Part shown: in pieces, positions 4,238-24,696 of the stretch
Layout of the letters: each line of letters starts with the position of its first letter
Numbering within the stretch: the first letter of the stretch is position 1
IMG/VR virus record: IMGVR_UViG_3300027659_000094
Span: 1-37,133 of that record
Strand: one strand, 5' to 3'
DNA: 37,133 nucleotides
DNA from: a virus
Notes under the pieces: model-generated
Databases searched by the model: none
Told to the model about the DNA's origin: nothing
The model's input: the letters and a program-made list of their open reading frames with translations, nothing else
Made by a program: the position numbers and the translations under genes

Positions 4238-6787
4238 ATGGCCGTTATCCCGATCAAGTCTTTTGGTGGCATTTCGCCCAAGACGCCGCCGCGCTATTTG
4301 CCGGACTCTGGTGCTCAAACCGCGCTTAACGCTTCGGTGTTCAACGGTTCTTTGCAGCCGCTGTCAAACGTAGGTGCTGCTGTACACACGCTGACCAAGA
4401 CAGGTGTTCCTCAGACTATCTACCGGTTTGGCCAAGACTCAGTGTCTGACTCGCAGTACTGGTTTCACTGGACTTCTGACGTTGACGTGTGCCGCAGCCA
4501 AGTATCTGGTGATACCTCCGAGTGGACGTTTTACACGGGTGACGGTGCTCCCAAGGCCACGTACGCACAGATCGCGCTGGCAGGCGCTAATTACCCGTTC
4601 ACGTCGCGTCTTCTAGGCCAAGCCGCTCCCACACAAGCGTTGACTGTCAGCCCTTCGACGTTTACGCCTACGACTTCTGCTGCCGAAGTAATCTTGACGG
4701 CCACAATGATCGGGCTGTTGACTACAACATATGGCGTTCAATTTAGCATCGTAGGCACTGCCGACGGCGACTACACAACTGTTACCCTGACCAACCCAAT
4801 TACTGCCAGCTCTGTTGCCTCTGCGATGAACGCTGCTACAGGTATTGCGGCTGTGGTTCAAGATACTGGAGTCAAAGTTACCAGCGACGCAACTGGTGAT
4901 ACCGCTAAGCTCTATGTGCGGTTCCGCACAGGTACTACGCCAAACACAAGCGGCACGTTCACCTACTCTGGCCTTGACGTGCAAGGTACTGGCACTGCTA
5001 CCACATCGCCTCTTATAATCATAAACGATTCTGAAATTGGCTCTATTATTTCTGGCGACGTCATTGCGTTAGGTGGTAGTGGCGTTTTATACGTTAATGA
5101 GTCTACAACAGGGACATTAACAGCCACTGGTTTAGCCACGTTTTTAACCGATCGCATGTCTGGACAACTTGTTGCTACTGCGTATGGTTCCTGCGTAGTT
5201 GTTACACCCGGCTCTGCGGCAAGTGGGGCTTCCGGTTCAATTGGATACAACAGATACAGGGGAGGTATAGAAGTAGCTGGCATATATTCTTTCGGTTCGG
5301 AATCACCAGCTCCGGGCAAAGTTTTTGTGACGCAAGCCAACGTCGACAGCGTAGAGAACCGATACTTGTCTGTACTTATTAACGGCGTTGAAAACTTTAT
5401 TGCTGTGCCTAACGTGTACACGGTAAACAACTTGGCCGTCATCAGTGGCTACGGTGGCAGTGTTGAAATTTTTGGTTCGATAGCCCCTTTTGCAATTGTG
5501 TCTACAACGGCTATCGGCACTTCTGCATCCATCCGCCTGCGCGGCGGGGATTACCCAACCACCATACAGTACTCCTCAATCAACGCGTCAGGCGTCACGG
5601 ACGTTGCAGCAATTCCTGAGACCCGCGTGTATACATTTACATGGGTCAACAAAGAAGCTGGCTTTGAGTTTGAGTCCGCGCCCGCTCCAGCATCAGATTC
5701 CGTAGATGTGCGCGTAGAGCAGACAGTGGCCATCTCGGGGCGTGGATCGGTCCCTACTGGATACTTGGCAACACACTGGCGGATATATCGTGCTGTAGCT
5801 GGCATATACCTGTTTGTGACTGAGCTGCCGCTCTCCCAAACCTCATTTACCGACGCCGTGAAAGCCGAAAGCCTTGGCGAAGAACTGCCGAGTCTGACAT
5901 GGCTTACACCACCTGACACGCTGCGTGGCTTAATCAACTTGCCTAACGGCATCATGGCTGGGTTCACTGGACGTGACGTCTACTTCTGCGACCCATACCA
6001 CCCGCACGCATGGCCTGTTGGGTACAACCAGACTATGGATTTCCCAGTGGTGGGCCTTGGCCGCATGGACACTACGCTTGCGGTTTTGACAACCGGAACA
6101 CCGTACTTCATCCAAGGCAGTCACCCAGACTCCATGGTGGTCGTTAAATCCGATCTGGAGCAGTCCTGTGCATCCAAGCGCAGCATTGTCAGCCACGGCG
6201 GCGCGGTTATCTACGCAAGTCCTGACGGCCTTGTCATGCTGAGCTCCGGCGGCTCTAGGGTGATTACGGATAAGTTTTTTACCCGGGCTCAATGGCAGTC
6301 GACATTCCGCCCTTCGTCAATTAACGCATATCACCACGACATGAAGTATGTGGCGTTCTATGACAACGGTACAACCACGGGCGGCTTTATCTTTGACATG
6401 ACGTCTGGTCAGTTTATTCTCCACACGATCTACGCTACCGCTGGCTATAACGATTTGCTGGCTGACAAACTGTACACGACATCCTCAAACCGCCAAGTAA
6501 AAATATGGCTTGATGGCGCGGCCATGTCGTATACATGGAAGTCCAAGAAGTTCACCATGCCGCAAGTCATGGGATTTAGTTGCGCTCAAGTTGAAGCCGA
6601 AGCCTACCCAGTGACAGCCAAGGTTTACGTCGATGGCACGCTGGTGCGCACTCAAACTGTTGCAAGCCGTGTGCCGTTCCGTTTGCCGGTGTCCCCGGGT
6701 CGTGACTGGGAGTTCCAGATCGAAGGCAACACCGAGGTGTTTGCTGTACTCGTAGCTCAGTCGATGGAGGAGCTGGCCAATGGCTAA
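4238..6787 (+). CDS. Tail nozzle-like virion protein
   Basis: This 849-residue protein begins after GAGGAAATTACC. The N-terminus (MAVIPIKSFGGISPKTPPRY) and length are similar to the nozzle or tail-tube B type proteins of short-tailed phages (T7 gp12 is about 790 residues). About residues 130-430 are Thr/Ser/Gly/Val-rich beta modules, probably surface insertions. The C-terminal third (from about 560) has propeller-like strands: a PNGIMAGFTGRDVYFCDPYH segment, then LTTGTPYFIQG, VIYASPDGLVML and YVAFYDNG. These features are typical of podoviral nozzle proteins, which form a six-bladed ring at the tail tip. It overlaps the fibre gene by 8 bases. The assignment rests on size, position and propeller pattern. 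Confidence 0.6.
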   Translation: MAVIPIKSFGGISPKTPPRYLPDSGAQTALNASVFNGSLQPLSNVGAAVHTLTKTGVPQTIYRFGQDSVSDSQYWFHWTSDVDVCRSQVSGDTSEWTFYTGDGAPKATYAQIALAGANYPFTSRLLGQAAPTQALTVSPSTFTPTTSAAEVILTATMIGLLTTTYGVQFSIVGTADGDYTTVTLTNPITASSVASAMNAATGIAAVVQDTGVKVTSDATGDTAKLYVRFRTGTTPNTSGTFTYSGLDVQGTGTATTSPLIIINDSEIGSIISGDVIALGGSGVLYVNESTTGTLTATGLATFLTDRMSGQLVATAYGSCVVVTPGSAASGASGSIGYNRYRGGIEVAGIYSFGSESPAPGKVFVTQANVDSVENRYLSVLINGVENFIAVPNVYTVNNLAVISGYGGSVEIFGSIAPFAIVSTTAIGTSASIRLRGGDYPTTIQYSSINASGVTDVAAIPETRVYTFTWVNKEAGFEFESAPAPASDSVDVRVEQTVAISGRGSVPTGYLATHWRIYRAVAGIYLFVTELPLSQTSFTDAVKAESLGEELPSLTWLTPPDTLRGLINLPNGIMAGFTGRDVYFCDPYHPHAWPVGYNQTMDFPVVGLGRMDTTLAVLTTGTPYFIQGSHPDSMVVVKSDLEQSCASKRSIVSHGGAVIYASPDGLVMLSSGGSRVITDKFFTRAQWQSTFRPSSINAYHHDMKYVAFYDNGTTTGGFIFDMTSGQFILHTIYATAGYNDLLADKLYTTSSNRQVKIWLDGAAMSYTWKSKKFTMPQVMGFSCAQVEAEAYPVTAKVYVDGTLVRTQTVASRVPFRLPVSPGRDWEFQIEGNTEVFAVLVAQSMEELANG

Positions 6788-8792: not shown

Positions 8793-9209
8793 ATGGCAGA
8801 ACTTGTCTACGACCAGAAAGAACGCATCGGCGCATGGGTTGCCGCGCAGGTCGATCAGGGAACTGACTGGGGCAGCTTCTACGCTATTGGTGTGGTGAGT
8901 GGTGACGAAATCTTGGCTGGCGTGGTCATCAACAACTACAACGGGGCCAACGCAACGTGCCACATTGCCATCGCCAAGCATACAAAACAGATCGTTCCGC
9001 TGTTCCAAGCGGTGTGTGACTACGCCTTTCGCCACTGCGGCCTCAAAAGATTAACTGGCATGGTTCCGTCAAATGAGCCTAAAATACTGGCATTTGACAA
9101 ACACCTCGGTTTCGAGGAAGAGTTCGTCATGAAAGACGGTGCCCCCGGTGCCGACATGCACGTTTTGGTAATGCGGCCTGACACCTGTCGTTGGCTGCGC
9201 AAGGAGTAA
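8793..9209 (+). CDS. GNAT-family acetyltransferase in the virion gene block
   Basis: This 138-residue protein has the layout of a GNAT N-acetyltransferase. Central strands contain IGVVSGDEILAGVVINNYNG and a conserved C-terminal block contains LKRLTGMVPSNEPKILAFDK followed by LGFEEE, the usual acetyl-CoA fold ending (N..a......GF..E). GNATs of this RimJ/RimL-like type recur next to internal virion protein genes in podovirus-like genomes, where the target is unknown. It may acetylate a virion or host protein (inference). The start is weak: no clear Shine-Dalgarno lies before the ATG at 8793, and translation may depend on coupling to the fibre gene 9 bases upstream. Confidence 0.72.
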   Translation: MAELVYDQKERIGAWVAAQVDQGTDWGSFYAIGVVSGDEILAGVVINNYNGANATCHIAIAKHTKQIVPLFQAVCDYAFRHCGLKRLTGMVPSNEPKILAFDKHLGFEEEFVMKDGAPGADMHVLVMRPDTCRWLRKE

Positions 9210-9212
9210 ATT

Positions 9213-10160
9213 ATGGGCGGTAAACGGCAACCAACACCAGATTACGAGCCGATGAAAAAACTTGGCGAAAGGCAGCTTGCATTTGCTGAGCGTCAGTACG
9301 CTGAGATGAAGCCTTTGGCTGAACGAGTCTATGGCCAGCAGATGGCTGCACAAGAGCAGCAGATGCGACAGGCACAGGACTACTACGACTACCAAAAAAA
9401 TACGTTCCGCCCGGTGGAGCAAGGTCTTGTCCGAGACGCTGAGCGGTTTAGCACTGAGGGGTATCGTGAGCAGCTTGCTGGCCAAGCCGCCGCCGCTGCG
9501 GGTCGCGCCTTTGGAGTTCAGCAGGAGATGGGCCAGCGGGCCATGGCTTCTCGTGGGGTAAACCCTAACTCCGGTGCTGCAATGGCGCTGCAGGCTCAGG
9601 GCAATCTGGGTCTTGCCGCACAACGTGCCAACGCTATGACAGGCGCACGCACTCAGGCTGAACAGCTCGGCTTTGCTCGTCGTATGGACGTCACAGGTCT
9701 GGGCCGCAACCTTGCAGGCGCTTCGACTGCTGCTTACGGTGGCGCTACTAGCGCAGGTTCTGCAGGCATGAACACAGCCATGGCCCCGGGTGGTCAGTAC
9801 ATGCAGGGTATGGGTCAGACAGGTCAGACGTATGGCAATATCCTTAACAACCAGACAAGTCAGTTCAACACAGGTTTGAACGCTGAAGGCGAAGTCATGG
9901 GCGCTTTGGTTGGTGCTGGTACAACCGCTGCGTTTAGGTCGGACCGCCGCCTTAAGGAAAATATTGAGTTGGTTGGCCGCGATGAGCGCACCATGTTGCC
10001 GCTGTATGAGTTCGAGTACATCAACGGTTCTGGCAGACGCTTCATGGGTGTCATGGCGCAGGACGTTGTAGAGTCGCACCCAGACATGGTCTTCACAATG
10101 CCTGATGGATTTATGGCAGTCAACTACGCCGGACTCGGCATCGAAATGGTGGAGGTTTAA
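9213..10160 (+). CDS. Internal virion-type protein with C-terminal S74 intramolecular chaperone domain
   Basis: This 315-residue protein starts after AAGGAG. Residues 1-240 are Ala/Gln/Gly/Met-rich helices (PMKKLGERQLAFAERQYAEM and Q/A-rich runs), typical of internal or ejection-type podoviral proteins. From residue 243 the sequence switches to SDRRLKENIELVGRDE and then YEFEYINGSGRRFMGVMAQD, which is the Peptidase_S74 (ICA) chaperone signature. Ser243 and Lys248 have the spacing of the catalytic Ser-Lys pair that self-cleaves the chaperone in tailspikes and endosialidases. The domain is short (about 73 residues against roughly 100-150 usually), so cleavage is not assured. S74 normally trimerises fibres, so its presence here suggests a trimeric assembly or a tail-tip protein (inference). 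Confidence 0.72.
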   Translation: MGGKRQPTPDYEPMKKLGERQLAFAERQYAEMKPLAERVYGQQMAAQEQQMRQAQDYYDYQKNTFRPVEQGLVRDAERFSTEGYREQLAGQAAAAAGRAFGVQQEMGQRAMASRGVNPNSGAAMALQAQGNLGLAAQRANAMTGARTQAEQLGFARRMDVTGLGRNLAGASTAAYGGATSAGSAGMNTAMAPGGQYMQGMGQTGQTYGNILNNQTSQFNTGLNAEGEVMGALVGAGTTAAFRSDRRLKENIELVGRDERTMLPLYEFEYINGSGRRFMGVMAQDVVESHPDMVFTMPDGFMAVNYAGLGIEMVEV

Positions 10161-10162
10161 TC

Positions 10163-11995
10163 ATGGGATTCGCAGCAGGTTTTCAAGTAGGTGCTTCCGC
10201 TGTTGAACGCGGCTTAAAAATGCGCGAAGAGCGTCAAGAACGAGAACGCCTGCGTGAAGCCATGGGGCTTAAACCTCAAGAGATTGCTGCTCGTCAGCCT
10301 ACTGAAGACGAACTTACCCGCGCTCAGGCTTACACGCAAGCAATTGCTGACCAAGACGCGAGGATGTTTGCCACGGATAATTCGGTAGAAAACCGCACAG
10401 GTCTTTTTTCAGCTAATCCCGCAGAAAGACCTGTAGATGCTTCCGTCGCTCCTCAGATGCCTTACGTAGGCCAAAGCGTTGGAGGAACTCAGTACGGCCT
10501 TGGCGGTCAGACTTTTAGCCGCATGCCAACGCAGCAAGAAATTGATTCCGCCCGTTATGCTGCCGCTGCCAATGTAATTGCCGAGCGTGACCCTGTGGCT
10601 GCTATGCGTATGCGCCAAGAGCAAATTCGTATGGAGACCGAGTCTAGAGAGGCACCTCTTCGCTTTAAGGGTTTGGAGCAGCAAGTAGCACTTGGCGGGC
10701 AACAGCTCGAAACCGGCGCTCTTACCCTTGCGCAACAGAGACGCTTGGCTGAGGAACAACAACGAGGTTCTGATTTCGCGGCATTTGCAGCAAAGAACCC
10801 TGACATGCCAGTAGCCGAACTGAAAGATAATGCATTTAAGCAGTTCAATTTCACTCCTAAGCAATGGCAGGAAACTGTGGCTACACGTCTGCAAATCGAA
10901 ACAGGCGAGATGGACATCTTCAAGAAAAGCATTGCAAAAAAGCTGCAAGGTAAAAATCTTACGCAGCTTGGAGCTTTGTACAACTCAGACCCAGACTTCG
11001 ACGACAAGACCGACTTGGCCATCGTGCCCGGTAAAGGCGGCGCTGTTACGCTCAACTTTATCGACAAGGCCACCAAGCGCATTACAGGCACTCAGACGTT
11101 TAAAAACGAAGCGTTGGCTACAGAGTACCTTAACAAGCAAGCCACTGAGCCTGAGACCATTGGTTCTTGGATGATGAACTTGCAGAAAGCCGAAGTGGGC
11201 ATGGACAAGGATCGTGCGGCTATCGAAGCTTCTAAGTCAACCGTCAATTACAACGCCGCTCGTATTACCCAGATCAACCAGATGAACAACGCTCTGGCTA
11301 CAAACCTGAAGAACAGCGAAGAGGCTAAACAGATTCAAGCTCAGTTTGCCACGTTGGACGATACCACCGATCCCGGTGGTTCCAAACGCCAGAGCCTGAT
11401 TACGCAGTTCAACATGCTGTCTGTCAAAGCTGGCGGAACAATTCCAACAACTGGCGGCGGTAAAAAAGGCTCGGTACTGCAGACTCCCGTCGACGTCAAG
11501 AAGAACGACGACGGCACATACACTGCGTTTGCCAAGGATGGCGGTCAAGCGCTGTACAACACGTTTAACGGCGAAACTATTCCACTTGGCATGGAAGTGG
11601 ACACCTACAAAGGCATGAAAGAAGCTGCCAAGAAAAACGGTGTTGGTTTGGTCGCAGGCGAAGACAACGGTCGACTGGTGATTAAGTTTACCGGCGCTGA
11701 CGGTAAGTTCTACGACGACGCCGAAAAAGCCAAGTACGCCAAGCCTGCTAAGGCTGCTGACCAGCCGGGTGGATTAGACACGTCGCGTACGACAGTTGTT
11801 CAGCCTGCAGCAGAACCTACTGTACCAACGCCTAAACCAGAGAAACGCGCTGGAGAAAAACAAACTGACTTCAGAGATCGACTTCTTGCTTGGGATAGAA
11901 ACCGCATGGCTTACGAAAGTCTTATGACAGAGCAGCGCCTTAGAGGGCAGCTGAGCGGCAACGCTGCCGGACTGCGCCGACCACTAGTTGAGTAA
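10163..11995 (+). CDS. Internal virion (ejection) protein
   Basis: This 610-residue protein starts after GGAGG, 2 bases downstream of the S74 gene. It is rich in Ala, Gln, Lys and Glu and mostly helical, with an amphipathic start (MGFAAGFQVGASAVERGLKM) followed by REERQERERLREA. Helical repeats rich in Q/E/R run from about residue 120 to 260 and 340 to 430. The C-terminal third is mixed, with KKNDDGTYTAFAKDGGQALY and a Pro/Ala-rich linker before the last helix. The composition and position just before a giant internal protein match the T7 gp15-type ejection proteins. No enzymatic motif is visible. The preceding S74 protein and the following giant protein are likely partners in the ejection assembly. 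Confidence 0.6.
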   Translation: MGFAAGFQVGASAVERGLKMREERQERERLREAMGLKPQEIAARQPTEDELTRAQAYTQAIADQDARMFATDNSVENRTGLFSANPAERPVDASVAPQMPYVGQSVGGTQYGLGGQTFSRMPTQQEIDSARYAAAANVIAERDPVAAMRMRQEQIRMETESREAPLRFKGLEQQVALGGQQLETGALTLAQQRRLAEEQQRGSDFAAFAAKNPDMPVAELKDNAFKQFNFTPKQWQETVATRLQIETGEMDIFKKSIAKKLQGKNLTQLGALYNSDPDFDDKTDLAIVPGKGGAVTLNFIDKATKRITGTQTFKNEALATEYLNKQATEPETIGSWMMNLQKAEVGMDKDRAAIEASKSTVNYNAARITQINQMNNALATNLKNSEEAKQIQAQFATLDDTTDPGGSKRQSLITQFNMLSVKAGGTIPTTGGGKKGSVLQTPVDVKKNDDGTYTAFAKDGGQALYNTFNGETIPLGMEVDTYKGMKEAAKKNGVGLVAGEDNGRLVIKFTGADGKFYDDAEKAKYAKPAKAADQPGGLDTSRTTVVQPAAEPTVPTPKPEKRAGEKQTDFRDRLLAWDRNRMAYESLMTEQRLRGQLSGNAAGLRRPLVE

Positions 11996-12040: not shown

Positions 12041-15000
12041 ATGGCTTTCGTACCAATCCGCACTATTGTTGGAACCGATGAAGAAGACACTGGTTTTAAG
12101 CCGTTGCGGGATGTCTACTTAGGGCCAGCTCCGCAGCGTGGAGCCATTGCTGCCGGTCTTTCGGCTGGTGTTGACCAGCTTCAGGGGTTAGGTTACAGCG
12201 CTCTTGGTGGTGTTGCTGATATTGCTGGAGCAAGCGGAGTTAGTGACTGGGCGAACGAACAAGCCCGTCGCAATCAAATTGACGCTTCTGTTGGCGGTCG
12301 CCCTGATCTTGAGCGTATTGAAGACCAAACACTTGGGTCTGCTCTGCCTTACGTCGGTTATCAGATTGCCAAACAAGTTCCTACCATGGCCGGTATTGCC
12401 GGTGCGCAGTTTATTCCCGGATTTGGCCAAGCGGCTACTGCCTTGGGTCTTACACGCCTTGGGGCTGTTGCACCTCGTATGCTGGGCGGCGGCGGTTTGC
12501 AAGCTGGCTCTAGTGCTGCGGCGCGTCGTGCTGCTTTGGCTCAGGGCGAAGCTTTTGGTACTGGCACGCTGGCTGGCTCTGCAATGGGTTTTGGCTCGCT
12601 TTACGGCGAGTCTGTTGAGGGTGGTGACCCAAGCCCATTCAAGGCTCTGGCACTGGCTCCAATTTATGGCGCTGCTGAAGCTGTTCTTCCCGCTGTGTTG
12701 CAAGGCAGTTTGCGTGCGCCAGCTCGGTACTCCGGCAATCTTGGCACTCGCATGGCTAAAGCTGGTGGGGTTGCTGGTGCGGGTGAAAGCTTGACAGAAC
12801 TCGGCCAAAACGAACTTGAAATGGGCATGCGGTCAGACTTGACCGCTGAAGAAATGGCGTCTCGTCGCCTTAACGCAGCAGCAGCTGGCCTCATTGTCGG
12901 CGGTAGTTTGGGTACTGTTGGCGGTCTTCGCGGTCCAATGGACTTGACTAAACCTGACACAGAACAAGAAACCCAAACAAGTACTGAGCAAAAACCAATC
13001 CTTGGGTTGCAGTACAACCCGTTGGCTGGCACGCCGATCATTTTTCCGGACGGCACGGTTGCTTTGGGCAGCGAACAAGAAATGCTGGCCCGCACAGGCA
13101 TCAAGCTGCCTGCCGCCGCTGCTGAAAAAGACCTGACAGCACCAGCCGGTACAACTACAGCCGCTGCTGGGGTTACCAAGCCAACTACGCCGTCGATCTT
13201 CAGCGAAACAGATACTGCGCTGAACAAACTCGGTGTCAAGCCTACAAAGAATTCTCGAGGCATCTACGACTACTTGGTGGCAGAAGGCATTGACCCAGCT
13301 TCCCCAGAGGCCGAGCCAGTCATGAACGCCTTGGCTGCCAGCAAAGTTGGCGAGGCCCGTAAGGCCGTTGGTGAAATCATCCGAGCGAGGAGTACCCGTG
13401 GCACAGGAATTTCTACTGTACAGCAGCCTGCAGGAGGCTTGGGAGTTGGGAGCCCTGTCGTTCAAGGAACTGTGGGAGATGCAGGACGCGTTGCTCCTGT
13501 CGCAGGAACAGTGGTCGGAGGTGCCCCAGCAGCTGGAGCCCCACTTCAACAAACTGGCCTTCTTCCAATCACAGCCGGGCAACCATCTACCCCTGTAACT
13601 ACTGGAGCACTAAGTGGCCCTCAAGCCTCTCAAACCATCGAAACAGCGCCGCAAGGACAAACCACTACCACCGTTTCAACTGCCGCCCCGGTAAGCCAGC
13701 CGCTTGCGCCCGGTCAGTTCCGCCGCGCTCCTAAGCCAATGACAGTCTTGCAAGCTGCACGGGCAACTCCAACTCCATCAACGGCAGCGGAGCCAGTCGT
13801 AGATGAACGCCGAGAAATCTTGCAAAAAATCTTTGGCGAACGCAACGGTGGCATCATCTTTGACGTGGTGGGTATGGGTATGCCCGAGCCAGAGGCTGCT
13901 GCCAAGTACGGCTTGAGCCGTCAGTCCATTCAGAAGATTGCTGGTGCTACGGGTCAGAAAGAGTGGCCAGCGCTTATTGCAGGTGCCAAGGCTAAATTTA
14001 ATCTGACTGATGCTCAGATTGCGGATGCGTTCAATACAGTTGCGCCAGACAGCACAGAAGGTCAAATAGCCAGTGAAGTGTTTACGCAGGACCAAGCCAG
14101 CATGGACGAAAACGAAGCCATTGAGGCTGGTCTGGGTAACATCGTCAAAACCGCTGGCGCTGGAACTTCAGAGGTTGAAGGCTTTACCAAACTGCAAAAA
14201 GAAATTGACGCTACGCTCGAAGCACTGGCTGTAGAAACAGACCCTGCTGTGTTGGCAGATTTGAATGCCAAGTTGACTGCTCAGATTGAGAAGGTCAAGG
14301 CAGTTGAAAAACAAGCCCAAGCCGAAGTGCGGGCGCTTGCTGGTCGTAAGTCTGACAAGGACGCTAGCGACGAAAAAGAAGCTAAAGCCGATCAACCCAA
14401 AGAATTAGGAGCAGAAGATGCCGTTCAAGTCGAAAGCACAACAAGCGTATCTGTTCAGCCAAAAGCCGAAACTAGCAAAGCAGTGGTCGGACAAGTACGG
14501 CGTGTCAAAAAGCCTGCCACAGAAAGTAAAGCCCAAGTCCCAGCCGTCATCCTCACCCAAGCCGAGCAAGCAGCCCAAGCGTGGGATGTAGTCGCTGCTA
14601 ATTTTCCCGGGGCTCCTAAGTTTGCTGACCTGACTAAAGCCCAGCAGAACACCTTCATTGGTTTTGGTGAAGGTAACTGGGAGCGCGGTGACGTTGAGCT
14701 TGAGCTGACCAAACTGGCCAGAACTGCTGCGTCTACTCAACGAGCTATTGGCCGTGAGCCAGTGACCATTGACGTCGAGTCCCGCATCATTGACGAGACC
14801 GTTGCTCCGCAAGTTGCCAAGCTGCCTGCGCCTCAAGTCACTCGACTGGAAAACCACTACAACGCTAAGCGTGACAGTGCTGAGTTCTTGGCCAAGGTCA
14901 AGGCCGACGTTGTTCTGTACGCCACCAAGGGTGCCGAGGCAGTTGCTGGCGCTATCCGCGACATCATCAAGTCCATCCACGCAGGTGTTCTGTCAGCGGC

Positions 15001-18000
15001 TATGATTTTTAACCCGACTGCCATTTCGCAAGTCGAAGCCTTCGTGGTGATCCCACAGGAGACTCAGACTACAACAACGCAGGTTTTGGCAGAACTGCCA
15101 GCCGAAGTGAAGGGTATGTCCGAGGCAGGCAAGCAAGCCTACGCCACACTGATCCCAGCTCTCAAGGGCAAGATTGGCGACAAGTTCGTTACCATCGCTG
15201 ACAAGCCAAGCGGTCGTATCTTTGTGTTCAAGGCCAATGGCGAACTGGTTCTCCAGCAGAAAGCTCTGTTTGGTTTGGCCAAGGGTGACCTGTACAAGGG
15301 CAACAACGACCTCAAGCAGAACCGTGTGACTCCAGCCGGTCTCTTCGGTATCAACGTGGTGGACGCTGCCAAAGGTGGGGACGCCGCCAAGACCGCAGGT
15401 GACTACGACTTCGGCAAAGTGTTTGCTCTGGACGATCCGGATGCCACCGTTACGTTCATGCACTCCGTCTGGCTCAAAGAGTCGGACGCTGCCAAGCGTG
15501 CTGCTGCCCTGAAGAACGATTCCGCTGCTGACTCGCGCTACTCGTTTGGCTGCATCAACGTAGACAAAGAGACGTTCAAGGACATGGTCGGCAAGTACAG
15601 CAACCAGATGGACGGCTCCAAGCTCTTCGTGGTTCCTGACGTGCAGAGCACCGTCAACGACTTCATCACTGGCAATGTGGCCAACGACCGACTCGTGCGC
15701 GAAGGCGTACAGCCAGTCACCAAGACTACCACTACTCCAGTCAAATCGGCCACCAAGACTGCTGGTGTTGACCGCACAGTAGCTGCCAAAGATGAAGAAG
15801 TCGGTGGCATGAAGTTTGGTAAAGAGGGTGCTCCAGTCAAGCAGCCGTACACAGCCAAGGAACTGCTGGCCGAACTCAAAGACTTTATACGAGCAGACAT
15901 TCCCGGTCGTAAATTGATGGTTGTGGACAGCGTAGTTGATTTGCTCACTTCTACAGACGAAAAAATACGAGCAGTTGGTGCTGCTTTGCAGCTTGAGGGC
16001 GCTTATGGCGTGGCCGTAGATGGTCGTGCGTACCTAATTGCAAACCGAATCAAACAGGGCTCTGGTCGCGCTAAGTTTATGCACGAAGTCGGCGGTCACT
16101 TGGGTCTGGACAATTTGCTTACCAAGGCAGATCAGGACAAGCTGGTCAATCAAATCAAGACGTGGGCTAAGAAAGCTGACGGCTCTTTGGAAGCTGAATT
16201 GGCGCTGCAAGCCTTCGAGCGTGTGCAAGCTGCGCAGACTCCTCAAGAAGACCGACGGTCGGAACTGATTGCTTACTTCATTGAGTCGGCCATGGAGATG
16301 GGTGTAGACCCGACTGCTGCCAATGACACCAAGTTGTCTGGCCCACTACGTGAATGGTTCCGCAATCTGTGGGCAGCATTTAAAGTAGCCGCTCGCAAGT
16401 TGGGCTTGAAGCCTGAGTCCATGACAGCCCAAGACGTTGTCAACTTGGCCTATGGTGCTGCTCGTTTGGAAATCAACGGCACATGGCACGGTACTGCTGC
16501 ATCATTTCGGAACTTCCGCCACAAGTTTATGGGGACTGGAGAAGGCGCACAAGCTTTTGGCTGGGGTACGTACTTGGCTCAACGCACTGGCATTGCCAAA
16601 GCCTACTGGACTGCGGATGTCGAGCGCAAGGCTAGTGGCCAACCTCGCCAACTAGCGGATTACCCCGGCAAAGATGCTTTTGAGGCTGCGGCTGCGGCAA
16701 ACGACTACCTCGGGCTTGGCCGCATGGGCAACCTCATCTCCTCCGCGAAACGGGGGGGAATGGATTTGATGCGTTCCCAATACGACATTTCCGCAGCACT
16801 AGACAAAGAACTTACAGCTTTCATGAATTGGGTACGCCCTGAAGGCAACCTGATGCGCGTCGACACCGCCGTTCCAGAAAACGAAATGTTGGATTGGGAT
16901 AAAGTTCTTTCTAGGCAGACTTCAGTTTTGAATAAGATTAAAGCTAAGTTGCCGGAAGACCTGCGCGAAGCCGTGGAAGAAGAAGTAAACGAAACGCTTG
17001 AAGGTATGACCGGCGAAGACTTTTACAGAGCTTTGATGTTCGTAGAAGACCGCGACGGTTTTGTCAGCGAGCAATTTGACGTAGCGGATTACAACAAACG
17101 ACTGGCCAACGCGCCAACCAAACAAGTTGTTTCCGCTTTTATTGACGAAAAACTCGGCGTCAACGGATTGAAGTTTTTGGACTCTGCCAGTCGTGGTAAT
17201 CCAGAGTTGCTCAAAGCTAAGTTGAAACAAAAACAAGAACTGTTGGCGGAAAAACAAAAAGACCTCGATAAAGCCAGCAAGGAGGCAGATCGCTGGGAAG
17301 GTCTATACGACGACGCGCCCGCAGATCAAAAAACATACGCACGTAAAACGTGGCTAAACGCAGTCTCTGCACGTACATCAAAAGAGTTTGAAGTTGAACA
17401 ACTCAAACAAGACATTGTGCAAGACACAAACAAGCTGCGTTCCATCGAGAAAAAAACGCGCAACCTTGTTATCTTCAACGATAAGAACATTTTCCGCGTG
17501 GGTTCTGAGGCTGCTGCGGATCGCCAGCGCATGAAGTTCGGCAGTGACATGGTTGAGTTGGGCAAGCGCGGCCAGTTGAAAGAGAAGGCTGGTAAGACAC
17601 GAGTTGATACTGCCAATGACCGTGCTATCAAACTCTTGGAGAAGGCGGCTAAGACCAAAGACCCAGCCGAAGCTGAGGCGCTGCGTGCCGAAGCTAACGC
17701 GCTATTTAGTGCCACTGCTGGCAAGTTGTCCGGCATGAAGTTTGGTAAGAACGCAGTGCCGCAAGGACTGATCGACCGCAACATTGCCAAGCTGCCTAAT
17801 ATGTCCCAGCAGCCGGTGAAGCGTGTTGTTGAGTCTATTGGTGATCTGGGTGGCAAGTACCTCGACTATGCCTTGTTTACTAACGATCTGGTCAAGCGTG
17901 CTCAGGCTTTGGGTCTGGGCGCTGCCAAAACTTTCTTCGACCGACTTGCTGCACGCAACGCCAAGGTCAGTGAGGAAGAGCGCAAGATTGAAAAGATCGC

Positions 18001-20581
18001 CGACCGCTACGCCCTGATCGAAGACGTCAACAAAGGCTCTGGCCCCGGCTCCGTCAACGAGTTCTTGTTTGAGTCCACCCGCACAGGCAAGTGGGGCTAC
18101 GACACAGCCAAGTTCAAAGCTGACCCAGCGATGAAGGCCGAGTTCGACAAGCTGGGCCCCAAGGCTCAGCAGTTCGTCAAGGACGTGTTTGCCCATGGCG
18201 ATGCCACGCTGTCGAACAAGAAGACGATTGTCCTGAACGCCACCAACTCCGAGTACGACGCCATGATTAAGGCAGCTCAGGACTTGGTAAACACTGCCAC
18301 GGACAGCAAGGTCAAAACCGACGCTGAGAAAGAGCTGGCCAAGCTCAAGGCAGAGAAAGCCGCTACGCTCAAGCGTTTCCAGACGCTGTTCCGCATCCGC
18401 GAGGGCATCCCCTACTCGCCTATCAAGCGCACTGGTGCTTACGTGGTAATCGGTGAGTCCGCTGAGTACAAAGCTGCCAAGGCCAATAAAGACACAGCCA
18501 CAGTCAAGAAGCTGGAGTCTGACCCAGACCACTACCATGTGTCGTTTGTCGATACCAAGTGGCAGGCTCGTAACCTAAAAGACAATTTGGCCGAGCAAGG
18601 TGTGTTCGATAGCCCGCAGATCGTGAAGCGCTCTGAGTCGTTTGATGAAGCGTTCAGTGGTGAGGCCATGCTGCCAGCCCTGACAAAGATGCGTGCCGCT
18701 GTTGATCGCCGTGCGCAAGACGCCAATGGCAAGAAAGACCCGACTGCTGGCAAGCTGCTCAACATCATCAACCAGTTGTACTTGGAGGCGTTGGCTGAGG
18801 GTAGTGCCCGCAAGTCTGAGATGCGCCGCCGTGGTGTGTCTGGTGAAGTGGACATGCTCCAGTCGTTCACACAGCAAGGCCGTGCCGATGCCAACTTCTT
18901 GGCCAGCGTTGAGTTTGAGCCTAAGATTCAGGACGCCCTGCAGCAGATGCGTAACCAGTCACGCACTGGCGACCGTGAGCGCAAGTCTGAAATCTTTGAC
19001 GAGCTGACCCAGCGCTACGCTGACTCGTTGGAGCCCAAAAACAATCCGTTCATCAACGGCCTGACCAACATGGCGTCCAAGTTCTTCTTGGCTTCCAGCC
19101 CCGGCTACTACCTGCAGAACTTGACACAGCCATTCATGATGTCGCTGCCTGCTATGGCAGGTCGCCACGATTACACCAAAGCTGCTGCTGCGCTGGCCAA
19201 GGCATACACTGAGTTGGGTCCGCTGTTCAAGGACGTGAAGCTGTTTGACCAGCAGTTTGACTTCTCCAAGGTGCCTGCTGACGTACGTACAGCTATCAAC
19301 GACTTGGTCAACCAAGGCAAGATTGACATCGGTCTGGCCACTGAGATTAACGAGTACAAGGTAGAAGCTGACGGCAAACTCAGCCAGTTTGCACAGCGCC
19401 TGAACAAGGGCATGCGTATGGCTGTCCAGAAGGTGGAAGCTACCAACCGTTTGTCTACTGCCATTGCTGCATACCGCTTGGAGTTTGAGCGGGCTAAGAA
19501 AGACCCAAAGATTGCAGACCCTAAAGCTGCAGCCACACAGTACGCTGCTGACATCCTGACTGAAACCCATGGTGACTACACAGCCTTTAACGCTCCTCGT
19601 GCGTTCAACACCCAGTGGGGTAAGGTGGCTTTGCAGTTCCGCAAGTTCCAGTTGATTCAGATTGCGTTCTACACCAAGCTGATCCGTGATGCGTTTACTA
19701 ATCCGGACGAGCGTGCAGTCGCCATGAAGACTCTGGGATACTCACTTGGCCACACTGCGGTGTTCGCTGGCATGATGGGCTTGCCCGGCTACGCTGCCAT
19801 TGCTGCGATCATGAGCGCCTTTGGCGACGAAGACGAGCCATACGACCTGACCGCTGAGATGCGCAAGGCGCTTGGCCCAGAGTGGGCTGACATGATTATG
19901 CGTGGCGCTCCTACCTTAGTTGGTATGGACTTGTCAGGCAAGATCGGTGCTGGCAACATGCTGTCCATCATGCCATTTAGTGACGCTGACTTGAGCACCA
20001 ACGCAGGCCGTGCCGAAGCGTTCGGTACATTGATGGGCGGTGCTGCTCTTGGTATGGCATCTCGAGTGGTTGACGGTCTTGGCCTTATTGCCAGCGGTGA
20101 CTACTACAAGGGTATTGAGCGCACTATGCCCAAGGGTGTGTCCGACGCACTCAAGGCTGGCCGTCAGGCTGCTGAAGGTATGACTCGCCGCAATGGTGAT
20201 GTGATCTTGCCTGACAGTGAAATTAGTGCAATCGACACAGTGATGACCGGATTGGGTGTGCCTGCTGTAAAACAAGCTGTGACCTACGAGCGTCAGAACC
20301 GCATGCGTGATATCACTGAGAACTTCCAAGACCGCACTACGCGCATCAAGAACGACTACACCAAAGCTGTTCGGGAGCAAGATACCGAGGCCATGGCAGA
20401 AGCCCGTGCTGCATGGACGAAACTACAGCAGACTCGCCAGCGTAACGGCTTGACACCGCAGCCAGTATCTAGCTTGCTGAAAGCGCCGCAGGAACAGAGG
20501 GCTCGTGAGCAGCGCACCGTAGGTGGTGTACAGTACCGCGAAGGCCAGCGTAAACTGGCAGAATCCGTAGTTGAAAATTAA
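12041..20581 (+). CDS. Giant polyvalent ejection protein: YkuD-like, metallopeptidase-like, ART-like and LPD38-like segments
   Basis: A single uninterrupted 2846-residue frame starts after AAGGGG. Residues about 30-310 are Gly/Ala-rich with hydrophobic helices, possibly membrane-inserting. A helix-turn-helix-like stretch (PEPEAAAKYGLSRQSIQKI) starts near 615. About 1035-1215 resembles an L,D-transpeptidase (YkuD): H1141 and C1171 within YSFGCINV, a variant of SHGC. About 1257-1470 holds HEVGGH (H1348, E1349, H1353), a possible zinc peptidase of HExxxH form. From 1483, HGTAASF then GTGEGAQAFGWGTYLA matches the ART-PolyVal ADP-ribosyltransferase pattern. Coiled coil fills about 1705-1800, and about 2330-2660 resembles LPD38. 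Its place as the last and largest internal protein fits the T7 gp16 slot, injected with DNA. Activities are inferred, not shown. Confidence 0.8.
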   Translation: MAFVPIRTIVGTDEEDTGFKPLRDVYLGPAPQRGAIAAGLSAGVDQLQGLGYSALGGVADIAGASGVSDWANEQARRNQIDASVGGRPDLERIEDQTLGSALPYVGYQIAKQVPTMAGIAGAQFIPGFGQAATALGLTRLGAVAPRMLGGGGLQAGSSAAARRAALAQGEAFGTGTLAGSAMGFGSLYGESVEGGDPSPFKALALAPIYGAAEAVLPAVLQGSLRAPARYSGNLGTRMAKAGGVAGAGESLTELGQNELEMGMRSDLTAEEMASRRLNAAAAGLIVGGSLGTVGGLRGPMDLTKPDTEQETQTSTEQKPILGLQYNPLAGTPIIFPDGTVALGSEQEMLARTGIKLPAAAAEKDLTAPAGTTTAAAGVTKPTTPSIFSETDTALNKLGVKPTKNSRGIYDYLVAEGIDPASPEAEPVMNALAASKVGEARKAVGEIIRARSTRGTGISTVQQPAGGLGVGSPVVQGTVGDAGRVAPVAGTVVGGAPAAGAPLQQTGLLPITAGQPSTPVTTGALSGPQASQTIETAPQGQTTTTVSTAAPVSQPLAPGQFRRAPKPMTVLQAARATPTPSTAAEPVVDERREILQKIFGERNGGIIFDVVGMGMPEPEAAAKYGLSRQSIQKIAGATGQKEWPALIAGAKAKFNLTDAQIADAFNTVAPDSTEGQIASEVFTQDQASMDENEAIEAGLGNIVKTAGAGTSEVEGFTKLQKEIDATLEALAVETDPAVLADLNAKLTAQIEKVKAVEKQAQAEVRALAGRKSDKDASDEKEAKADQPKELGAEDAVQVESTTSVSVQPKAETSKAVVGQVRRVKKPATESKAQVPAVILTQAEQAAQAWDVVAANFPGAPKFADLTKAQQNTFIGFGEGNWERGDVELELTKLARTAASTQRAIGREPVTIDVESRIIDETVAPQVAKLPAPQVTRLENHYNAKRDSAEFLAKVKADVVLYATKGAEAVAGAIRDIIKSIHAGVLSAAMIFNPTAISQVEAFVVIPQETQTTTTQVLAELPAEVKGMSEAGKQAYATLIPALKGKIGDKFVTIADKPSGRIFVFKANGELVLQQKALFGLAKGDLYKGNNDLKQNRVTPAGLFGINVVDAAKGGDAAKTAGDYDFGKVFALDDPDATVTFMHSVWLKESDAAKRAAALKNDSAADSRYSFGCINVDKETFKDMVGKYSNQMDGSKLFVVPDVQSTVNDFITGNVANDRLVREGVQPVTKTTTTPVKSATKTAGVDRTVAAKDEEVGGMKFGKEGAPVKQPYTAKELLAELKDFIRADIPGRKLMVVDSVVDLLTSTDEKIRAVGAALQLEGAYGVAVDGRAYLIANRIKQGSGRAKFMHEVGGHLGLDNLLTKADQDKLVNQIKTWAKKADGSLEAELALQAFERVQAAQTPQEDRRSELIAYFIESAMEMGVDPTAANDTKLSGPLREWFRNLWAAFKVAARKLGLKPESMTAQDVVNLAYGAARLEINGTWHGTAASFRNFRHKFMGTGEGAQAFGWGTYLAQRTGIAKAYWTADVERKASGQPRQLADYPGKDAFEAAAAANDYLGLGRMGNLISSAKRGGMDLMRSQYDISAALDKELTAFMNWVRPEGNLMRVDTAVPENEMLDWDKVLSRQTSVLNKIKAKLPEDLREAVEEEVNETLEGMTGEDFYRALMFVEDRDGFVSEQFDVADYNKRLANAPTKQVVSAFIDEKLGVNGLKFLDSASRGNPELLKAKLKQKQELLAEKQKDLDKASKEADRWEGLYDDAPADQKTYARKTWLNAVSARTSKEFEVEQLKQDIVQDTNKLRSIEKKTRNLVIFNDKNIFRVGSEAAADRQRMKFGSDMVELGKRGQLKEKAGKTRVDTANDRAIKLLEKAAKTKDPAEAEALRAEANALFSATAGKLSGMKFGKNAVPQGLIDRNIAKLPNMSQQPVKRVVESIGDLGGKYLDYALFTNDLVKRAQALGLGAAKTFFDRLAARNAKVSEEERKIEKIADRYALIEDVNKGSGPGSVNEFLFESTRTGKWGYDTAKFKADPAMKAEFDKLGPKAQQFVKDVFAHGDATLSNKKTIVLNATNSEYDAMIKAAQDLVNTATDSKVKTDAEKELAKLKAEKAATLKRFQTLFRIREGIPYSPIKRTGAYVVIGESAEYKAAKANKDTATVKKLESDPDHYHVSFVDTKWQARNLKDNLAEQGVFDSPQIVKRSESFDEAFSGEAMLPALTKMRAAVDRRAQDANGKKDPTAGKLLNIINQLYLEALAEGSARKSEMRRRGVSGEVDMLQSFTQQGRADANFLASVEFEPKIQDALQQMRNQSRTGDRERKSEIFDELTQRYADSLEPKNNPFINGLTNMASKFFLASSPGYYLQNLTQPFMMSLPAMAGRHDYTKAAAALAKAYTELGPLFKDVKLFDQQFDFSKVPADVRTAINDLVNQGKIDIGLATEINEYKVEADGKLSQFAQRLNKGMRMAVQKVEATNRLSTAIAAYRLEFERAKKDPKIADPKAAATQYAADILTETHGDYTAFNAPRAFNTQWGKVALQFRKFQLIQIAFYTKLIRDAFTNPDERAVAMKTLGYSLGHTAVFAGMMGLPGYAAIAAIMSAFGDEDEPYDLTAEMRKALGPEWADMIMRGAPTLVGMDLSGKIGAGNMLSIMPFSDADLSTNAGRAEAFGTLMGGAALGMASRVVDGLGLIASGDYYKGIERTMPKGVSDALKAGRQAAEGMTRRNGDVILPDSEISAIDTVMTGLGVPAVKQAVTYERQNRMRDITENFQDRTTRIKNDYTKAVREQDTEAMAEARAAWTKLQQTRQRNGLTPQPVSSLLKAPQEQRAREQRTVGGVQYREGQRKLAESVVEN

Positions 20582-20590
20582 GGAGTAACC

Positions 20591-20845
20591 ATGGCCAAGT
20601 CACCTGCATGGCAGCGCAAGGAGGGCAAGTCCGAAAAGGGCGGGCTCAACGCCAAAGGGCGTGCGTCGTACAACAAGGCAAACCCCGGCAAGCCGGGGCT
20701 CAAGGCTCCTCAACCCGAGGGTGGCCCACGACGCGACTCGTTCTGTGCCCGCATGGAGGGTATGAAAGAGAAGCTAACCAGCGCCAAGACAGCCAAAGAC
20801 CCCAACAGCCGCATCAACAAATCGTTGCGTGCATGGAAGTGCTGA
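20591..20845 (+). CDS. Small basic protein, DUF6321-like
   Basis: This 84-residue protein starts after AAGGAG, 9 bases after the giant gene. It begins MAKSPAWQRKEGKSEKGGLN followed by AKGRASYNKANPG and a PRRDSFCARM segment, and ends in SLRAWKC. This is the pattern I know as DUF6321, a short, basic, Gly/Lys-rich family found in phages, often late in the structural operon. Its function is unknown; nucleic-acid binding is suggested by its charge only. It is the first of five tiny genes arranged head to tail before the convergence. Confidence 0.7.
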   Translation: MAKSPAWQRKEGKSEKGGLNAKGRASYNKANPGKPGLKAPQPEGGPRRDSFCARMEGMKEKLTSAKTAKDPNSRINKSLRAWKC

Positions 20846-21663: not shown

Positions 21664-24600
21664 TCATACCTCGTTGACTGCATCACCGTCAAATTGGCTA
21701 GTCACCAACGTCAATACTGGCGTAGCCGAATCTGCATTCAAGCGTCGTGTGTCCACGACAATGCAACGTGTCTGCTGCGACGTGCAGTCAGTACCACGGG
21801 TGATGACAAACTTTTCACCCTGAGACACAAGCGCGTTGGCTTCCTTGATGCTGGCCACCATCGAGTGGTAGTCCATGCGGTGAGCCATGCACCATTCCCG
21901 AACTTCCTTCTGGGACAAGATCAAGCGCCCAGCCAGTTCTTTGCTGTTGGCCGTGCCTAGGATGTAGCGCCCAGCAATAGGGCCATTGACTCTGTTGCGC
22001 GGGGTCTCAGGGCCACGCCCGTCACGGCTGTCACGGCACTCGGTAGTGACAATAATTCGCTGGCTCAGCATGCTAATCATGCGCTGGAACGCATCTTCAG
22101 ACGACACCGTGTTGTTCTCCTCTACGGAGTCAGACAGATCACGCAGCAAGCTCACCGTAAACTTGTACAGCTCCTTGATGTCAAACTCCACAATGCCCAG
22201 CTTCTTGGCGATCTTGGCAATCACGATGGTGCATGCGCTGTGAGCCCGGTAGAAACGGAACTTGGGGTTGGACAGCACCTCAGTGAACTTGCCCAGCATG
22301 GTCTGCATGTCACGGAAGACCTCAGCTTCGTTGGCCAGAATGTACTTGACCATGGCAGCACCCGCATGGCCGGAGTTGGCAGTCATCTTCTTGATGTTCT
22401 CGGCAGCTACCATGGCAGATGCTGACCTCCATGCGTCCTCGCCTTCTTCTGTGTCCGGGTATGCAGCTCGGTCTACAAGCATCAGTGGGTTGTAGCGGTC
22501 CACGTTGAGCTGGATCAGGCGTACGGCCTCGGCCTGCGAGTTGGCTTGGTTAGCAGCCAGCAGCCCGTAGAAGTCACGGTTGCCAGTCACGTACACGTTC
22601 AGCCGCCACTCGGATGACTTGGCGAACACCACGCCGCCGCCCTTGGATGTCAGGCGAACCTTCTCTTGGCCGTTGGATACGCCGTAGGCTACGTCACTGA
22701 ACACGCCAGCTTCCATGTTGGTCAGCTCATCAGCCAGCACGGGGATGTTGTTGTACACACCTAGCGTAGCCCACAGAGCGTTGGTGGTGAAGCCTTCCTT
22801 GGAGTTGAGCGTCATCTTCTCAGGGTTGCCGAACGCAGCCAGTGCAGCGTGGCATGCTGTAGTTTTCCCCCGGCCAGACTTGCCGCCTTGCAGGGCCAGA
22901 ATCAAGCCCTTGTACAGGTCTTCGCAGTGGTGCGATACCAGTGAACCCCAGCCAGCGCATACGGTGTACTGCCAGTGGACGGCCTCTGGCCTGTTGTACA
23001 TGAAGTTCATGGCCTCGGCGTAGCCTTCCAAGCTGCCACGGCCATTCTTGAATGCGTTGGCACGCTCCTTGGCGTTGCCGCCTACCAGCACTTTGCGCTC
23101 TGTGCCGTCTTGGGCGAACAACGTCTCACCGATAAGGAACGACTTGTGGTCATCCTTCCAGCCAAAGGCTGTCATGGTGTTGGTCTCAGTGATGCTGCGC
23201 TTTAAGGACTGCAGTTGGTCCAGCAGATATGCCGCCATGTGCTCTCCAGCGTTTTTGTGGTTGCTCTTCGTGAGCTCGTATCTGGCCATAGCCCTCAGCA
23301 AATCCGTTGGTGACGCCACGGACTCACCTGAAATCTCAAAGTCACGGATGCGCTTGTCGGGTAGGTGCAGTCGGATGCCATAACGGAACGTGCCGTCCTC
23401 ACCCCGGATACGAGTCGTTGGATAGAACAGGTTCTCACAGAACGGGAAAATTTGCATGACCCCTTCCTTGTCGGGGATCAGGCGGCTCAACAGACCAGCG
23501 TCCCACTGGTATCCGCGAGGTAGTGCTGGTATGGTCGCTTGCTCAGTAACACCTTCCTCAGTAACGGTCTCAGCAGTAGTTTCTTCTGGCTCCGGCATTA
23601 CCCGACCTAGCACCAGCGGGGTCTTGATCTTGTCCTTGAACGCGCAGCCATTGCAGCCGTCGGGGTTGCACTTGCTGAAGAACTCGCACGTTGTGGGCCC
23701 AGCAGTCCATGTGTCGTAGCGGATGTCCCAGTCAACTTGGCCATGGCCAGTTTCTTCACGCTTGGAACTCCATGACTGAGCTAACTCACGACCATCAACG
23801 CAGTGGGTCAGCAGACCGATAACGCCGCGCCAAGTCTCGTAGTCCACGTCACCCATGGTGTCGCGCATCTTGCCAGCTTGCAGGCACTTGTCTGCCATGA
23901 CGTTGGCATCTACCGGGACTTCAGGGTATTGGGTCAGGTGGGCTGTCAGGTCTGAGTTAAGGTCAGTCGGCTGATACTGTTTCTTGGGCGTCTCTTTGAC
24001 CGGCTTGACGCCGTTCTCTTTGGCGTAGGCAAACAGCGCTACAGCGAATTCTTTGGGGTCAATGGCTTCACAGGTAGCCATCAGCTTGACTGTCTTGGCG
24101 TCGCCGTTCTTGCGGTTGGTCGAATTAATTGGGCGCAGTATGGAGCTGAAGTCAGCCGTACGTGTCGGGTCAGCTATGACCTTCTCGTGAGCCAGCGTAG
24201 CCTTGAGAACCGTCGCCACCTTGCGCCACAGCTCGTGGCCAATCTCATGGGTCAGCGGCCAGTAGGCATGCATACCGTAGCCGGAATCAACCAGCATGGG
24301 GCGCGGGATACCAACGTCCTTGGCGAACTTGGCCATGGCCACACAAGCGTCCTTCTTGGTAAGGTAGCCCTGCTTCTTGTCGAACTTCTCTTGGCCGCAG
24401 TCAACGTCCACCCAGAACGCCTTGGCCTTGTCCCAGTTCTCAGGGATACGGTACTTGCGTTTGGGGTTGCCCTTGATGTCGAGTTCTTCCAACTCGATGA
24501 CGGCCTTCTGGTACGAAGCACATGCATGGTACACAGATACTTGCTTGCTACGGGACATAGCATCAACTGCTTCCGCCATGGTCTCAAGGTCGGTGTAGAC

Positions 24601-24696
24601 CTTGTGGGCCGGGTATTTGTAGCCCTCTTTGAACAGGGCGAGGTAATGGATGCCGAACTCAGGCAGTATTGTTTTGAGGAACTCTAGGGTGTTCAT
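21664..24696 (-). CDS. Primase-helicase: AEP-type primase fused to DUF927-like helicase
   Basis: This 1010-residue protein starts at an ATG preceded by GGGTGAAG. The N-terminal part has archaeo-eukaryotic primase hallmarks: WVDVDCG with acidic D97 and D99, SGYGMHAYW with H143, and an R-containing ILRPINSTNRK segment near 187-197. A Cys cluster (CEFFSKCNPDGCNGC, about 336-350) could bind zinc. The C-terminal part has a Walker A motif GGKSGRGKTT at about 599-608 and a Walker B-like VLADELTNM around 650, in the DUF927 helicase style. It would prime synthesis and unwind DNA at the fork, with the polymerase and SSB encoded upstream in the same operon. It sits after its own terminator and may have its own promoter. 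Confidence 0.82.
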   Translation of the reverse strand: MNTLEFLKTILPEFGIHYLALFKEGYKYPAHKVYTDLETMAEAVDAMSRSKQVSVYHACASYQKAVIELEELDIKGNPKRKYRIPENWDKAKAFWVDVDCGQEKFDKKQGYLTKKDACVAMAKFAKDVGIPRPMLVDSGYGMHAYWPLTHEIGHELWRKVATVLKATLAHEKVIADPTRTADFSSILRPINSTNRKNGDAKTVKLMATCEAIDPKEFAVALFAYAKENGVKPVKETPKKQYQPTDLNSDLTAHLTQYPEVPVDANVMADKCLQAGKMRDTMGDVDYETWRGVIGLLTHCVDGRELAQSWSSKREETGHGQVDWDIRYDTWTAGPTTCEFFSKCNPDGCNGCAFKDKIKTPLVLGRVMPEPEETTAETVTEEGVTEQATIPALPRGYQWDAGLLSRLIPDKEGVMQIFPFCENLFYPTTRIRGEDGTFRYGIRLHLPDKRIRDFEISGESVASPTDLLRAMARYELTKSNHKNAGEHMAAYLLDQLQSLKRSITETNTMTAFGWKDDHKSFLIGETLFAQDGTERKVLVGGNAKERANAFKNGRGSLEGYAEAMNFMYNRPEAVHWQYTVCAGWGSLVSHHCEDLYKGLILALQGGKSGRGKTTACHAALAAFGNPEKMTLNSKEGFTTNALWATLGVYNNIPVLADELTNMEAGVFSDVAYGVSNGQEKVRLTSKGGGVVFAKSSEWRLNVYVTGNRDFYGLLAANQANSQAEAVRLIQLNVDRYNPLMLVDRAAYPDTEEGEDAWRSASAMVAAENIKKMTANSGHAGAAMVKYILANEAEVFRDMQTMLGKFTEVLSNPKFRFYRAHSACTIVIAKIAKKLGIVEFDIKELYKFTVSLLRDLSDSVEENNTVSSEDAFQRMISMLSQRIIVTTECRDSRDGRGPETPRNRVNGPIAGRYILGTANSKELAGRLILSQKEVREWCMAHRMDYHSMVASIKEANALVSQGEKFVITRGTDCTSQQTRCIVVDTRRLNADSATPVLTLVTSQFDGDAVNEV

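Follow-up and report, generated by a model that had tools for sequence, protein, structure and literature searches.

The open reading frame at 12041..20581 (+) encodes a giant of 2846 residues which, judged by its sequence, is a polyvalent protein of an uncultured short-tailed phage, and which probably serves as a virion-packaged effector in which a constant carrier bears exchangeable enzymes in the middle of the chain. The window, i.e. the whole stretch of DNA analysed, is a linear record of 37,133 bases and probably an incomplete viral genome. A YkuD (L,D-transpeptidase-fold) domain, a zincin-like metallopeptidase (MPTase) and an ADP-ribosyltransferase (ART) follow one another in a single frame without internal stops, so that disparate enzyme domains share one frame as in polyvalent proteins. 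The initial annotation had described one intact frame of 2846 codons with three enzyme-like segments, and each motif that it cited is found at the residue given for it. The separable, swappable nature of the three enzymes goes beyond what had been observed there.

Genomic context

The giant closes a late gene block. Upstream lie a phrog_511 internal virion protein (4238..6787, +; match 4.5e-146), tail genes, an acetyltransferase (8793..9209, +), a virion structural protein with a Peptidase_S74 chaperone domain (9213..10160, +) and, adjoining the giant, a 610-aa ORF (10163..11995, +) that is a probable virion protein by position and an analogue of JC1 gp68; the phrog_511, tail and S74 genes mark this as a late/virion gene neighbourhood. 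The acetyltransferase is syntenic with POI1126 gp24, and POI1126 has an equivalent of the S74 protein in the same relative order. On the other side a convergent replication module adjoins, with a large primase/helicase-like protein containing DUF927 at 21664-24696 (-), a homologue of which is encoded close to the giant at 98 of the 135 loci. Directly 3' of the giant a small DUF6321 protein is encoded (20591-20845, +); several longer phage proteins, themselves of unknown function, end in this domain.

The YkuD-fold domain

The first enzyme segment comprises residues 1052-1182 (15194..15586, +) with the catalytic residues H1141, S1168, C1171 and N1173, the cysteine being contained in YSFGCINV. 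The Pfam profile PF03734 stays below threshold against the window's protein (E=0.081 for the whole protein, 19.5 bits for a slice as compared to the curated cut-off of 23.4). The same profile matches 17 of 22 relatives, and two others, L096 (34.3 bits, 4.3e-8) and L128 (24.2 bits, 5.5e-5), exceed the curated cut-off; E values in relatives range from 2.9e-5 to 4.3e-8, apart from that of L128. The best-scoring YkuD domain is that of L096 (L096:1718-15061), at 4448 residues also the longest relative found. Across 69 sequences with pairwise identities down to 23%, H1141, S1168, G1170, C1171 and N1173 are invariant (69/69), as are T1097-P-A-G1100, Y1122 and R1153.

An AlphaFold model of residues 1014-1860, built from an alignment of 70 sequences, has a mean pLDDT of 86.6, and in its YkuD part pLDDT is mostly 92-98. 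This part is structurally matched to the L,D-transpeptidases 4xvo/5bmq (Z 10.9; 117-122 residues, rmsd 2.3-2.7), to Csd6 (Z 10.8), to LdtMt2 (Z 10.2-10.6) and to B. subtilis YkuD 1y7m (Z 10.5), while the coiled-coil entries with the same Z align elsewhere in the model; in a Foldseek search with the model 5bmq was again the top match, though at an E value of 0.05. Because relatives match the profile, two of them above its cut-off, the catalytic residues are conserved and the predicted fold is confident (Z about 10.5-11), the YkuD-type fold proposed in the initial annotation is strongly supported, even with the window's own score below threshold.

The canonical histidine of SHGC is replaced by F or Y in 68 of the 69 sequences, the window having S-F-G-C. 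The spacing from H to C is 30 residues in the window as compared to roughly 17 in the textbook signature. Owing to these two departures, the reaction cannot be assumed from the fold, and the predicted domain may act as a transpeptidase, a carboxypeptidase or an endopeptidase. No relative of the segment was found among 50,697 phage records, nor in a pattern-based scan of 84,980 species genomes of bacteria and archaea, which thus offered neither a prophage copy nor a clue to the host; the absence from cellular genomes would fit a virulent life style without proving it. An NCBIfam search gave nothing relevant, and PDB profile searches with the YkuD alignment and with the MPTase+ART alignment yielded nothing beyond chance hits on repeats and helices.

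Metallopeptidase and ADP-ribosyltransferase

The YkuD domain is joined to the metallopeptidase by a linker of low confidence (residues 1232-1263; 15734..15829, +), where pLDDT drops below 50 (model residues 219-250) and which is a candidate processing site. The putative metallopeptidase occupies residues 1255-1480 (15803..16480, +), with HEVGGH at 1348-1353 and E1408 as third ligand. H1348, E1349, H1353 and the distal E1408 are conserved in 37 of 37 sequences, related sequences carry the variants HEVGAH, HEVGSH and HEVGVH, and the AlphaFold model has a small sheet followed by two helices, which bear the H/E/H motif and E1408. The motif is of the HEXXXH form described for MPTases of polyvalent proteins (PMC5512222). 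No match was obtained in Pfam, NCBIfam or PDB, and no zincin is among the structural matches listed for the combined model, a list filled by matches of the other domains. The peptidase suggested initially is hence supported in motif, conservation, third ligand and predicted order of secondary structure, with no family or fold library match to add to these; of the three folds expected, YkuD and ART were matched by the model and the zincin was not among the matches listed.

The third segment (residues 1481-1830; 16481..17530, +) contains HGTAASF from residue 1483 and GTGEGAQAFGWGTYLA from residue 1498, both where the initial annotation had placed them. The ART-PolyVal profile PF18760 is below threshold for the whole window protein (E=0.21), while 10 of 11 sequences match it, the best at 2.2e-5 and the window at 0.021, under the cut-off. 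The H-Y-D triad expected on strands 1, 2 and 5 is formed by H1483 (35/37), Y1511 (37/37) and D1814 (D or E in 33/33). When the model was compared to a library of viral structures, ART-PolyVal-like proteins and LPD giants were among the nearest (E 1e-17 to 1e-8), as was a giant bearing SleB. Profile, triad and model together make a strong case for an ADP-ribosyltransferase of ART-PolyVal type, in agreement with the earlier proposal, with a predicted helical hairpin/coiled-coil insertion at residues 1721-1803 (17201..17449, +; model residues 708-790). Loss of the key residues in relatives, by which the three assignments could be judged, is rare or absent, C1171 being retained in 69/69 sequences, H1348 and E1349 in 37/37 and H1483 in 35/37.

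Exchange of whole enzyme cassettes

Five scans of IMG/VR recovered 135 distinct giants or fragments, 108 of them complete. An HExxH or HExxxH motif is present in all 108 complete giants. YkuD is found in 57 of these and the ART cassette in 41; nine, the window's giant among them, have both and 19 have neither, shares that are biased by the queries used. The order of the domains is fixed: the metallopeptidase motif lies within 600 residues after YkuD in 60 of 62 relatives, as compared to 0.9% of shuffled sequences, and ahead of it in one of 62. This frequency, like the conservation of the catalytic residues in all three segments, places the motifs of the initial annotation beyond chance. The metallopeptidases paired with YkuD are of many types.

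Gain, loss and exchange of the enzymes affect entire cassettes and take place at fixed positions. The YkuD cassette (residues 895-1254; 14723..15802, +) is cleanly missing from L002, where window positions 14722 and 15803 are contiguous (L002 12004|12005), an in-frame absence of 360 codons, and it is also missing from L001 and L007. L014 diverges at the junction point of L002 into a different metallopeptidase cassette, and L005, L006 and L008 change over to other metallopeptidase cassettes at 15799-15803. Seven relatives come together again further downstream, at 17762 (residue 1908), all within one nucleotide, and four relatives rejoin within a nucleotide at 14418 (residue 793). In-frame junctions consequently recur at residues 793, 895, 1254/1255 and 1908, and the blocks shared between close relatives are mostly 70-94% identical in DNA. 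A short K-F-G-K/S motif is seen at cassette borders (15812-15823, 17534-17545 and 17738-17749; residues about 1258, 1832 and 1900); as a linker or cleavage tag, K-F-G-K / R-F-S was rejected, being only about twofold enriched in the family (75 as compared to 34 expected).

The presence of many MPTase subtypes in one slot, as for effectors with changing targets, could also mean that the peptidase is directed at host proteins and not at its own chain. This is rather unlikely, as a motif maintained in 108/108 giants, whatever their other cargo, fits better with a shared role in processing, which is also argued for by Iyer 2017 (PMC5512222). A little less likely again is that the YkuD domain is an accessory effector which, instead of opening the wall for entry, remodels or seals it once the DNA has passed (as a carboxypeptidase or a transpeptidase) or harms competitors. 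Its presence in about half of the complete relatives, its absence from close ones, and structural matches that span transpeptidases and the L,D-carboxypeptidase-type Csd6/Pgp2 are consistent with such a role; its position in the chain before the peptidase, together with the lytic wall enzymes that related phages bear in their DarB giants (PMC6630229), speaks rather for a role in entry. In the giants lacking YkuD no other wall enzyme is recognisable at Pfam sensitivity, and the wall step may therefore not depend on YkuD. Some of the YkuD-less giants, L132 and others of alignment A7, carry ParB_N, LPD23 or LPD38.

The C-terminal module and probable virion location

The shared C-terminal helical module (residues 1908-2846; 17762..20578, +) is of the DarB-like/PLxRFG kind. 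The C-terminal third matches the DarB-like phrog_10089 (1.5e-54), and among 50,697 annotated phages relatives match this third of the giant only. Residues 2021-2830 match DarB-like/PLxRFG giants at 23-28% identity (tblastn E values down to 2e-39) in Serratia phage Parlo, Klebsiella LASTA, SopranoGao, PBC5, POI1126, Atu_ph08 and others; identity to the module of the DarB-like podovirus giants is 22-28% over about 550-600 aa. The predicted model of the module (pLDDT 84, pTM 0.80) has no clear match in PDB, from which no conclusion is drawn. In POI1126 an acetyltransferase, an S74 chaperone protein, a hypothetical protein and a giant of about 4840 codons succeed one another, which, if some small additional POI1126 genes are disregarded, is the order of 8793-9209, 9213-10160, 10163-11995 and 12041-20581 in the window.

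DarB of phage P1 is a known virion component. In purified virions of the Bcep22-like phage JC1, mass spectrometry detected the 4515-aa DarB-like gp69 together with its upstream neighbours gp67 and gp68 (PMC9144972). C-terminal homology and gene order both link the giant to DarB-like giants, and one such protein has been found in virions; the giant is therefore very probably a component of the virus particle and likely ejected with the DNA, in line with the ejection protein postulated in the initial annotation. The closest model is offered not by T7 gp16, which was cited there, but by the DarB-like/polyvalent giants. The source phage is probably a podovirus and a distant relative of the Bcep22/PBC5 type. 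For this phage the giant is known from sequence, and its gene stands last in the late block beside the convergent replication module, which would also be compatible with a protein made late and acting within the producing cell, with no delivery by the virion; the virion location of DarB-like giants of the same synteny (PMC9144972), and of P1 DarB, makes this improbable.

Proposed mode of action and relation to known systems

The carrier would consist of the conserved helical C-terminal module and an N-terminal part, with the exchangeable enzymes between them. Packaged in the head, the chain would be ejected together with the DNA, whereupon the YkuD domain, once in the periplasm, may act on the stem peptides of peptidoglycan and so help the ejectosome through the wall. 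The same role would be filled by a transglycosylase or a SleB-like hydrolase in relatives. Bcep22 DarB carries an N-terminal lytic transglycosylase, and in Atu_ph08 DarB a cell-wall hydrolase precedes a peptidase (PMC6630229). Since DarB-like kin carry such enzymes there, the earlier suggestion that YkuD replaces another wall enzyme fits well. The metallopeptidase would then cleave the chain at linkers and release its parts, and the ART may reach the cytoplasm and modify host proteins early. That the YkuD fold is instead a cysteine peptidase or ligase working on the polyprotein itself is very improbable, in spite of its constant pairing with a metallopeptidase and the altered S-F-G-C motif, as known YkuD enzymes use peptidoglycan peptides and we know of no self-processing member.

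Giant multidomain phage proteins encoded by late genes, with zincin-like MPTases (HEXXXH included), H-Y-D ARTs, wall-degrading and LPD domains, have been catalogued as polyvalent proteins, their wall domains being lysozyme, SpoIID-like and DD-peptidase, with YkuD or transpeptidase unmentioned in the main text (PMC5512222). The general kind of protein is thus already known, and the YkuD cargo is new relative to the main text of that catalogue. No description of a virion-delivered YkuD protein or of YkuD/transpeptidase as polyvalent cargo, nor of the YkuD module and its exact swap points, was found in the openly licensed literature searched; among phage lytic proteins in PhaLP, YkuD occurs in only 10 (PMC8310338).

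The DarB-like giants of the Bcep22/PBC5/POI1126 type share the C-terminal module and gene order with the window giant (virion location being shown for JC1), but they are often 4500-4900 aa long and combine methylase/helicase with transglycosylase or hydrolase, whereas the window giant has YkuD-MPTase-ART in 2846 aa. An identity as an antirestriction methylase-helicase was ruled out, as no methylase or SNF2 helicase match to Pfam is present in the chain. With the L,D-transpeptidases of PF03734 the window domain shares the fold, TPxG, the histidine and the S-x-G-C-x-N signature; it differs in having F or Y before G-C, in a longer H-C loop and in its location within a phage giant. The window ART, of ART-PolyVal fold, resembles T4 Alt as a probably injected ADP-ribosyltransferase. 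T4 Alt stands as a protein on its own and belongs to a different ART clade, whereas the window ART is a cassette of one polyprotein. T7 gp16 is alike in its described role, being an internal protein of the virion that is ejected and carries a domain acting on the wall; that domain is of another fold and, to our knowledge, gp16 has neither ART nor MPTase.

A bolder generalization, somewhat short of an even chance, is that of a plug-in injected polyprotein, in which a constant ejected carrier offers interior slots with junctions fixed at codon level, always includes a processing metallopeptidase and exchanges whole enzymes between related phages, among them an undescribed L,D-transpeptidase-fold virion cargo acting on wall peptides and not on glycans. 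A wall-peptide enzyme fold is hereby added to the tools that phages appear to inject, and the arrangement suggests how effectors for the periplasm and for the cytoplasm, together with their own cutter, could be delivered in a single chain. Natural swap pairs among close relatives, with or without YkuD and with or without ART, allow the role of each domain to be compared. For expression, the in-frame junctions that recur show in practice where the domain borders may be set. The N-terminal 200-300 residues of the giant (12041-12940, +) are likewise swapped among relatives, whose alternative starts include MAFVPIRT, MPSLQELR, MSRRLTDE and MSALDKIR.
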